From the NCBI RefSeq assembly GCF_009192745.1, contig NZ_VTFV01000003.1, positions 310,001 through 374,000 on the forward strand: a DNA stretch of 64,000 nt. The letters run 5' to 3'. This DNA comes from Arthrobacter citreus. GTDB lineage: Bacteria; Actinomycetota; Actinomycetes; Actinomycetales; Micrococcaceae. Of the stretch, positions 3,862 to 55,472 are shown one piece after another. The position numbers and the translations under genes are program-made. The notes under the pieces were generated by a model that did no database searches, had not been told where the DNA came from, and saw only the letters and a program-made list of their open reading frames with translations. Within the stretch, counting starts at the first letter, position 1; every line of letters starts with the position of its first letter.

Positions 3862-4977
3862 ATGATGGACTGGGCGGCGCTGCGCGGACGGTGGTTCCGC
3901 TCCCGGGAATCCGGGGGTGAACCTGTTCTCCGTCCGCGCGTCGCCGTCGTTACCGACTCATCCTGTTCGCTGCCTGAGCAGTGGGCGGAGAGCCCGCAGC
4001 TGGCTTCGCTCGTGCGGGTTGTCTCGATGCCGGTCATGATCGGTGACCAGATCTACGGCGAGGGCACCGACAGGATGATCGGTGCCCTGGCGCTGGCCCT
4101 CGCCCAGGGACAGGACGTACGTACCTCCCGCCCGGCGCCTGGCCAGTTTGAAGCCCTCTACGCGAAGCTGGCGGCCGAGGGTTTCGAAGCCGTAGTCTCG
4201 GTCCATCTTTCCTCCAAGCTCTCCGGAACGGCGGATTCCGCCCGGCTTGCCGCCCGCACCGCCCCACTTCCGGTGACCGTGGTGGACACAGCATCGGTCG
4301 CCATGGGGCTTGGCTATGCCGTGCAGGATGCAGCCCGGGCAGCAGCTGCCGGAGCCGAAGCGGCCGGCGTCGTCGCCGCGGCGCGCGCCAGCGCTGAAGC
4401 CGCACACATCCTTTTCTATGTACCCAGCCTTGAGCAGCTTCGCCGCGGCGGCCGCATCGGCGCTGCAGCAGGCTGGTTTGGCACTCTCTTTGCCGTCAAA
4501 CCGATTCTGGCGATCCGGGACGGACTGGTCGTTCCGCTGGAGCGCGTCCGGACCGCACCCAAGGCCCTGGCCCGGCTGGAAGAACTCTCCCGGGAGGAAC
4601 TTGCCCGCCGAACCGGCCCGGTGCGCGTGGCTGTCCATCATTTTGGCAACGAAGCAGAGGCGGAACGTCTGGCTTCTGCCGTGATCCGTGAAGTGCCGGA
4701 AGCCCAGGTGCTGCTCTGCCCCCTGCCTGCAGTGCTTGCCGCGCATGCGGGCCTGGGCGTGCTGGCGGTTGCTATTGCACCCAGTACGTCGACTGGGCGG
4801 GCGCCAGGTGCTGCCGATACCGGGAGTGTCGCCGCGGCGGGTGGTTCCCCGGCCGGCGGTGCCGAGAAGAAGCGGGGCCCGGGACCCGCCGGGGGCGCAG
4901 GCGAGGCCGGTGACGTGCCGGGCACGGTGGGCCGGCCAGCCGCCCGTCCCGGGGACCTCGACCGGGATATCGACTAA
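3862..4977 (+). CDS. DegV family fatty-acid-binding protein
   Basis: The 371-residue protein has the DegV fold. VAVVTDSSCSLP (about 28-39) is the N-terminal signature, HLSSKLSGT the loop contacting the lipid head group, and LRRGGRIG a later conserved block. DegV/FakB proteins bind a fatty acid and in Firmicutes present it to the FakA kinase. No FakA is in this window, so the partner is unknown. The last 80 or so residues (after VLAVAIAPST) are a Gly/Pro/Ala-rich, probably disordered tail not found in typical 280-residue members. The ATG (or a second ATG at 3865) lies one base after the leuS stop, suggesting coupling. Confidence 0.88.
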   Translation: MMDWAALRGRWFRSRESGGEPVLRPRVAVVTDSSCSLPEQWAESPQLASLVRVVSMPVMIGDQIYGEGTDRMIGALALALAQGQDVRTSRPAPGQFEALYAKLAAEGFEAVVSVHLSSKLSGTADSARLAARTAPLPVTVVDTASVAMGLGYAVQDAARAAAAGAEAAGVVAAARASAEAAHILFYVPSLEQLRRGGRIGAAAGWFGTLFAVKPILAIRDGLVVPLERVRTAPKALARLEELSREELARRTGPVRVAVHHFGNEAEAERLASAVIREVPEAQVLLCPLPAVLAAHAGLGVLAVAIAPSTSTGRAPGAADTGSVAAAGGSPAGGAEKKRGPGPAGGAGEAGDVPGTVGRPAARPGDLDRDID

Positions 4978-53838: not shown

Positions 53839-54426
53839 TCAGTGAAGCGAGGCGTCTGCAGCAGTAATCCGCCACGAGTGGAACACGGCTTCGAAGCGGG
53901 CAGAGGCAGGCGAGGCCACGTACGGTCCGGCACTGACGGGGCTTGCGGGGGAGAAGGGTGTTACTCGCAGCAGCTCCAGCGGGTGTCCTGCCAGTCCCGC
54001 ACGGATGGTGAGGGCATCACCTTTCCAGCTGGCGCGCACCACGGTCCGTTTGCCCAGCCACTCGTGGTGGGGGGAGGAGGACCAGTCCGACTTGGGGCTG
54101 GTGACTACTGCACCTGCCTGCAGCTGGCCGTCCGCGAACTCAACGCCGGCCTTGACCCACAGATCCGGCGCCGCCCGCAGGAAGATTCCGGCCTGGTCGA
54201 ACTGCTCGAAGGTCTGGGCGGTGAACTCGACCTCCATGGCCGTGTCCGGCATGAACGGCGAGAGCAGGGCGTTTTCCGTAGCAAACGTGAAGCCGTAGGC
54301 GGTTTCGCGCCAGGCGTCGCTGCCCTCGGAGGCCGTTACCTGCAGGTCCGGGCCTGAGCCGAGCCTGCGCGCAGGCGGGTTTGTCCAGACGCCTGCGCTC
54401 CAGTCCAGCGTACGTTCCTGGCTCAT
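53839..54426 (-). CDS. DUF1349 domain-containing protein
   Basis: The 195-residue protein is of the DUF1349 family, a concanavalin-like beta-sandwich related to regulation of ketoacyl or sugar metabolism in annotations but without proven role. Blocks are TAYGFTFATENALLSPFMPD, FTAQTFEQFDQAGIFLRAAP, and WVKAGVEFADGQLQAGAVVT. ATG 54426 has GAGAGGAAAC upstream. It is the last gene before the dif-containing gap. Confidence 0.85.
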   Translation of the reverse strand: MSQERTLDWSAGVWTNPPARRLGSGPDLQVTASEGSDAWRETAYGFTFATENALLSPFMPDTAMEVEFTAQTFEQFDQAGIFLRAAPDLWVKAGVEFADGQLQAGAVVTSPKSDWSSSPHHEWLGKRTVVRASWKGDALTIRAGLAGHPLELLRVTPFSPASPVSAGPYVASPASARFEAVFHSWRITAADASLH

Positions 54427-54566
54427 GCGTGTTTCCTCTCCATTGACTGCCTGTCCGTGCGATTGGCTGCCCGTGTTCTTCGCCCCGGCCTGCTGGCCTT
54501 CAGCGCCTGGGCTGTCAGCCCGCAATATACCCCTGCCGCCTGGCGGGGGACCCCTTTCGAAACACT

Positions 54567-54594
54567 AGTTGACATAATGTAGATTATCGGCGCA
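54567..54594. other. dif: dif site (XerC/XerD chromosome dimer resolution)
   Basis: The site reads, on this strand, XerD arm AGTTGACATAA, central hexamer TGTAGA, XerC arm TTATCGGCGCA: the 11+6+11 layout of dif. Reversed, it matches E. coli dif at 20 of 28 positions, including an almost complete XerD arm (TTATGTCAACT against TTATGTTAAAT). It differs from the B. subtilis XerD arm (TTATGTAAACT) at one position. XerCD recombine here, under FtsK, to resolve chromosome dimers. The polarity switch of GGGGGA at this point is independent support. Confidence 0.88.
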
Positions 54595-54815
54595 AAGGAA
54601 AGTCCCGGAAGAGGGTCCCCTGCGCGCGGTTTGTACCAACCTCCGCGAACGGCATTACCCGCCGCCGTTACGCCGCAGCGGACGGCGGGAGCCGTCAGCG
54701 CTGGTTCGCTCCGGCCCGTTCCCAGCCTGCCGGCGACGGCCGGGGCCGGGCTCCGGGGGAAAAGGTACCTCACGTGTTTTTGCTCATGTTGGCCGCATCC
54801 GGCGTGCACTCTTTC

Positions 54816-54870
54816 AGTTGACATAATGTCCCCCGCTGTCTGTCGGCGTCCTCTGTGCAGGTTTACATAA
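54816..54870. repeat. Two XerD-arm-like repeats downstream of dif
   Basis: AGTTGACATAATGT at 54816-54829 is an exact 14-base copy of 54567-54580 (XerD arm plus start of the central region), in the same direction, 249 bp away, but without a XerC arm. GGTTTACATAA at 54860-54870 matches the XerD arm type of B. subtilis at 10 of 11 positions. They may be decayed Xer attachment sites or coincidental promoter-like sequence (both contain TTGACA or TTTACA). Confidence 0.6.
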
Positions 54871-55169
54871 CGCGCACCGGCGGCTTGGGAACAATTGTGC
54901 AGGGTGCGTCGTTGTACCGGGCGTTGACCTGCAGTGAAGCGGATATTGCGGGGATTTGAGCTTCCCTTCGACACTCCGTGCGGCTGCCGGCTCACCGGAC
55001 AGGGACCGGCCCGGCCTGCGCATGGGGGTAGCCTGTCCGGAGCGAACCGCAGGAAATCTGCGGCTAGGCCACAAAAAGACCTATTCAGATGCCGTTTGGT
55101 GTGTTATGCGGCTTCACCTATATGATCTACGCTCGAACCCCCCACAAATTCAGGAGAAAAGCACTACAC

Positions 55170-55472
55170 ATGGCTACCGATTACGATGCACCCCGCGTCA
55201 AAGAAGAAGACCAGCCCACGGACTCTTTGGAAGGGCTGAAGGCCCAGCAGCGCGGCGGAGCGATGACGGCGGTTATCGACGTCGAGGAATCCGACGCTAT
55301 TGACGGGTTCGACCTTCCCGGCGCCGACCTCTCCGGCGAAGAACTGCTGATCAAGGTTGTTCCGGCGCAGGCCGATGAGTTCACCTGCATGTCCTGCTTC
55401 CTTGTCCGTCACCGCTCCCAGATTGCCCTGGAGAAGAACGGCGACAAGTACTGCGTGGACTGCGAAGGCTAA
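55170..55472 (+). CDS. DUF4193 domain-containing protein
   Basis: The 100-residue acidic protein is found only in actinobacteria. It begins MATDYDAPRVKEEDQPTDSL and ends in a zinc-ribbon-like pair CMSC (in EFTCMSCFLVRHRSQIA) and CVDC. Function unknown; the pattern suggests a small metal-binding nucleic-acid or RNA polymerase partner, but this is inference. ATG 55170 has AGGAG 13 bases upstream. It is monocistronic with a perfect terminator. Confidence 0.92.
   Translation: MATDYDAPRVKEEDQPTDSLEGLKAQQRGGAMTAVIDVEESDAIDGFDLPGADLSGEELLIKVVPAQADEFTCMSCFLVRHRSQIALEKNGDKYCVDCEG

Follow-up and report, generated by a model that had tools for sequence, protein, structure and literature searches.

The DNA analyzed here (the window) is a stretch of 64,000 nucleotides from Arthrobacter citreus, in which a gap of 743 bp (positions 54427-55169) contains, as the sequence-only reading of this DNA had reported, no gene. 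On one side of the gap, a gene for a DUF1349 protein (PF07081) occupies 53839-54426 on the minus strand, with its ATG at 54426, and on the other, a gene for a DUF4193 protein (PF13834) occupies 55170-55472 on the plus strand, with its ATG at 55170. The DUF4193 gene is preceded by a probable promoter at 55092-55133 (plus strand), which is marked by conserved alignment blocks and is separate from the half-sites described below. Within the gap lies a 28-mer, AGTTGACATAATGTAGATTATCGGCGCA (54567-54594, plus strand), consisting of an XerD arm (54567-54577), a centre (54578-54583), and an XerC arm (54584-54594); it is accompanied by KOPS-like motifs and, on its XerC side, by additional copies of the XerD arm.

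The 28-mer had been read as a dif site, and its sequence, conservation, position, and recombinases all agree with this call. As expected for dif, one copy was found in the 3.55-Mb draft genome, even when three mismatches were allowed, and shuffled versions of the window gave an expected count of 0.00 per window for the core pattern. The inverted arms in an 11-6-11 layout match dif of the phylum, and the reported similarity to E. coli dif (20 of 28 bases) and the single-base mismatch to the XerD arm of B. subtilis were reproduced in a second count by eye. Allowing at most two mismatches, the core TTGACATAATNNNNATTATCGGCG was found in 51 of 59 relatives from the order (22 of 30 genera), and a slightly shorter, looser form of it in 119 of 120 Micrococcaceae genomes. 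Just two tyrosine recombinases were detected in the genome, namely XerD (contig C8), the match of which is over its cut-off, and XerC (contig C4), which is a best match slightly under the equivalog cut-off. In 15 complete relatives, dif lies 44-49% of the circle away from dnaA, consistent with the predicted position opposite oriC; agreement with the GC-skew extreme, also predicted, was only rough, with a cumulative minimum ~20 kb to the left of dif in its own contig and a sign change within ~75 kb of dif in the one complete relative sampled. Neither several full copies, nor a location far from the switch in polarity, nor a better dif elsewhere was found. Because the 28-mer is present in a single copy, is nearly invariant in the family, lies opposite dnaA, is served by XerC and XerD as the sole tyrosine recombinases, and coincides with the strand switch of an octamer (see below), we conclude with near certainty that it is the chromosomal dif, at which XerC and XerD, judging from the family, would resolve dimers on the arrival of FtsK. 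Taken alone, this dif belongs to a known class and is unremarkable within it.

The site had also been taken to place the replication terminus inside a block of essential genes. Among the genes named, leuS, lepA, qcrA/qcrB, and def were verified; no confirmation was obtained for holA, era, cta, or rbpA. The terminus itself stands in the sense that segregation and FtsK translocation converge at dif, but the replication forks need not meet there (PMC13342612). In complete genomes of the genus, the dif locus, including the array of half-sites described below, is in plus orientation relative to dnaA in some species and in minus orientation in others, which points to frequent inversions around the terminus. 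Separately, a dif-like sequence, TTTACATAACGTTGATTATCGGCG, was observed without half-sites on the 400-kb second replicon of a genus member (G016:C2, L040, ~position 4001), and additional dif-like sites with other centre bases were observed in G060, G431, G432, G497, G507, and other genomes; those with differing centres probably belong to Xer-using plasmids or integrated elements.

GC skew was abandoned as a locator of dif owing to its weak signal, and the polarity of octamers was used instead. Over 200 kb on either side of dif (contig C4, L058-L077), the octamer CGGGGGAG is perfectly strand-polar: to the left of dif, all of its 36 occurrences are on the top strand, and to the right, all of its 34 occurrences are on the bottom strand. 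All alternative switch points, placed in 20-kb steps, gave a worse separation than dif. Similarly, in relative G003 (300 kb sampled, L078-L092), the counts on the two strands were 22 and 0 on one side of dif and 0 and 16 on the other. Because such a strand switch at dif resembles the behavior of KOPS, we regard CGGGGGAG as the candidate KOPS of these bacteria, which FtsK would recognize. The E. coli KOPS, GGGNAGGG, was rejected as the local one, being hardly polar around dif, and a limited search of the literature returned no published KOPS motif for these bacteria, the papers listed for the octamer itself being unrelated. Close to dif itself, a KOPS-like core, CGGGGGA, is located at 54544-54550 (plus strand), 16 bp from the XerD arm, and points at dif; a core at a fixed short distance on the XerD side, with the same direction, is present in 19 of the 29 genus members. 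We also observed a further KOPS-like core that points at dif from the XerC side, with an almost constant spacing of about +87 to +110, at 15 of 29 genus loci (for example, L023-L025 and L033-L039), and at +99 in L165 and L166 of genus g121. Another CGGGGGA core, located at 54754-54760 in the interval from dif to the array, runs counter to the overall polarity by pointing away from dif; it was seen in A. citreus only.

Absent from the sequence-only reading is an array of XerD half-sites beside dif. The first, AGTTGACATAATG (54816-54828, plus strand), repeats the XerD arm exactly, together with two bases of the centre, and has no XerC arm; the second, TTTACATAAC (54862-54871, plus strand), is the third copy of the arm. 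Directly abutting the first half-site is a KOPS-like core at 54829-54835 on the minus strand (TCCCCCG on the top strand), which points at dif. This reverse complement of the core starts 8-10 nt after the start of a half-site in 23 of 29 species, and the half-site concerned is nearly always the first. Among the 87 half-site copies found with the pattern TKACATAA, none is followed by an XerC arm, and the preceding base is T in 78. The third position of the arm is G or T, both in half-sites and in the dif of relatives; the bases beyond the arm are mixed and differ from those of dif, as do the outer two bases of the arm. No -10 box lies at promoter spacing from the half-sites, and neither an Rfam match (RNA element) nor an unusual DNA fold across the array was detected. 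Helical phasing of the half-sites was considered and dropped, a period of 10.5 bp not being preferred over neighboring ones, and the N-terminal extension of XerD (its first 70-95 residues) was set aside as a partner of the array, being poorly conserved and varied and showing no clear link to it.

Both half-sites are conserved in the genus. Each of the 29 members, A. citreus included, carries two to four copies of TKACATAAY, which are all oriented like the XerD arm and lie on the XerC side, ~235-480 bp from dif, with the first half-site ~235-320 bp away. The longer motif TTKACATAAY occurs only 5-8 times per genome (A. citreus and 14 relatives), and 40 of the 78 copies outside dif in these 15 genomes lie within ~600 bp of dif, a clustering that random placement would produce with a probability of ~1e-6 or less per genome. 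When the gap was aligned across the 29 species, the background proved to be nearly unconserved (median window score 0.25), and above it dif (2.28), the first half-site (2.21), and the second half-site (2.10) rank among the top blocks, together with the promoter, ribosome-binding site, and start of DUF4193. The 29 species are related, so that these counts are not independent events; the surrounding gap has nevertheless drifted. As an observation apart, TTGACATAAC recurs far from dif in two conserved promoter-like contexts unrelated to it, CTTGACATAACTATAACC and GTTGACATAACTAG (~position 1500 in L093 and L097 and ~position 1500 in L094 and L096).

Because the sequence of the half-sites is that of the XerD arm of dif and the genome encodes no tyrosine recombinase other than XerD and XerC, XerD is likely to bind them alone, without XerC. 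Half-sites that have no XerC arm should not recombine, and a structural role is thus the likely one. Overall, the locus is best explained, with good if not full confidence, as a composite of dif, converging KOPS-like CGGGGGA(G) motifs, and a one-sided array of XerD-only half-sites. XerD on the array would form a platform beside dif that is unable to recombine. Such a platform would most likely work like the XerD sites of B. subtilis, where SMC is unloaded at the terminus; SMC is present in this organism, and by this analogy, the array may act as an SMC unloader, a proposal that ranks first but that we hold with slightly less than even confidence. Otherwise, the array could capture FtsK or XerD on the side on which FtsK would meet XerC first. 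Some observations weigh against this explanation: the half-sites depart from dif immediately past the arm and in its outer two bases, the related species A. cheniae has no half-site at its dif near DUF4193, no excess of half-sites was found away from dif, and many genera of the family lack an exact copy. A more far-reaching form of the proposal, in which the one-sided platform unloads SMC and/or stops FtsK, so that SMC release, FtsK arrest, and dimer resolution are joined within less than 500 bp, is put forward tentatively; under it, dif would be such a composite in this genus and, in a simpler version, in other Micrococcaceae.

The strongest competitor of an SMC-unloading platform, which we nonetheless find doubtful, is that the XerD-only sites serve dimer resolution locally: XerD on the array would pause FtsK, or the array would concentrate XerD, making it an activator of dif and not an SMC unloader. 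The FtsK in question could have been loaded on the abutting KOPS core or could arrive from the XerC side, variants to which the same doubt applies. The position of that core, which adjoins a half-site and points at dif in most species, and the confinement of the array to the XerC side speak for such a role. Against it, the array is absent from most dif sites of the family, and FtsK arriving from the XerC side would be expected to meet the centre-facing end of XerD, unlike at dif.

We considered it improbable that the half-sites are operators of DUF4193, bound by a transcription factor with an XerD-arm-like motif or by XerD acting as a regulator. DUF4193 adjoins dif, with half-sites upstream of the gene, in 29 of 29 genus members, and it adjoined none of the other loci in the first comparison; in a related species compared subsequently, Arthrobacter cheniae (L248), dif lies near DUF4193 without a half-site. 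However, no half-site was found among 105 DUF4193 loci from outside the genus (341 kb). Moreover, the half-sites precede the conserved promoter by more than 200 bp, and they occur near dif in other genera in which DUF4193 is not the neighbor: TTKACATAAY was found 16 times in the surroundings of 70 dif sites from other Micrococcaceae genera, with other neighbors, compared with a mean of 0.23 for 300 permuted motifs (maximum 2; 0 of 300 reached 16). The half-sites follow dif, not the neighboring gene. In these genera, they are mostly single and lie on the XerC side in the same orientation, the exceptions being reversed copies in g33 and at one g116 locus and copies on the XerD side in g7. In many genera of the family, no exact half-site was found near dif, so dif in general cannot depend on what they do. 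Tandem pairs of half-sites were detected in each of the four sampled members of the genus and, elsewhere in the order, in 2 of 392 genomes. One of these two has no dif within 1.5 kb. In the other, G378 (L052/L217), which belongs to another family, the XerD side of dif carries three XerD-like half-sites in reversed orientation, an arrangement that the other 22 species of its genus do not have and that possibly evolved independently.

Two further explanations seem very improbable. The half-sites could be decayed att sites, remnants of mobile elements integrated by Xer; an arm sequence shared with dif and the extra dif-like sites in some genomes of the family would fit this origin, but position and orientation are kept across the genus while neighboring bases drift, the XerC arm is retained in no copy, and the genome has no further tyrosine recombinase. 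At the same low level, they could be polar, Ter-like fork barriers near dif, as oriented repeats at a terminus might suggest; however, this would leave their identity with the XerD arm unexplained, the array is one-sided, and the orientation of the locus relative to dnaA varies between species. Finally, chance or AT-rich sequence resembling promoters (TTGACA -35 boxes) could be suspected as a source of the half-sites, as TTGACATAAC is also present in promoter-like contexts distant from dif; in our view, this is ruled out by the permutation and DUF4193 controls, and their clustering at dif in every genus member and the missing -10 box also speak against it.

What we rate as new here is the half-site array with its KOPS core beside an otherwise ordinary dif, of which a literature search, with coverage that lacked most subscription journals, returned no description. 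To our knowledge, XerD-driven release of SMC has been shown experimentally only in Bacillus; the array is a compact, deletable element with which XerD unloading could be tested beyond the Firmicutes, and it offers a test of whether FtsK, XerD, and SMC come together at a single location.

In B. subtilis, XerD bound at the terminus is reported to unload SMC there without recombination (Karaboja 2021, cited in PMC10945525, PMC12322038, and PMC8523169). The Arthrobacter array resembles the B. subtilis sites in that XerD-arm sequence lacking an XerC arm lies in the terminus of an organism that has SMC, and in the proposed action without recombination; it differs in being compact and one-sided, in lying less than 500 bp from dif, and in abutting a KOPS core. 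The B. subtilis sites are dispersed through the terminus region, whereas no excess of one-mismatch half-sites was found here in 400 kb away from dif; for this reason, and as binding by XerD is a prediction from the repeats, we do not class the array with the B. subtilis sites. The dif of Frankia alni, CACGCCGATAATGCACATTATGTCAAGT (PMC3025954), shares with that of the window the 11-6-11 layout, 23 of 28 bases (compared by eye), the partners XerC and XerD, and a position at the terminus; unlike in Arthrobacter, no half-site array is described there. The candidate KOPS is likewise a G-rich octamer that switches strands at dif, as in E. coli, but its sequence is CGGGGGAG and not GGGNAGGG. The matS sites of E. 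coli, through which MatP keeps the SMC complex MukBEF away (PMC10945525), are, like the array, repeated sites in the terminus, but protein, sequence, and spacing differ. Finally, the plasmid sites cer and psi carry ~180 bp of extra protein-binding sequence beside the Xer core site (PMC5357621); their accessory proteins are ArgR and PepA or others, whereas the accessory sites in Arthrobacter look like XerD arms.
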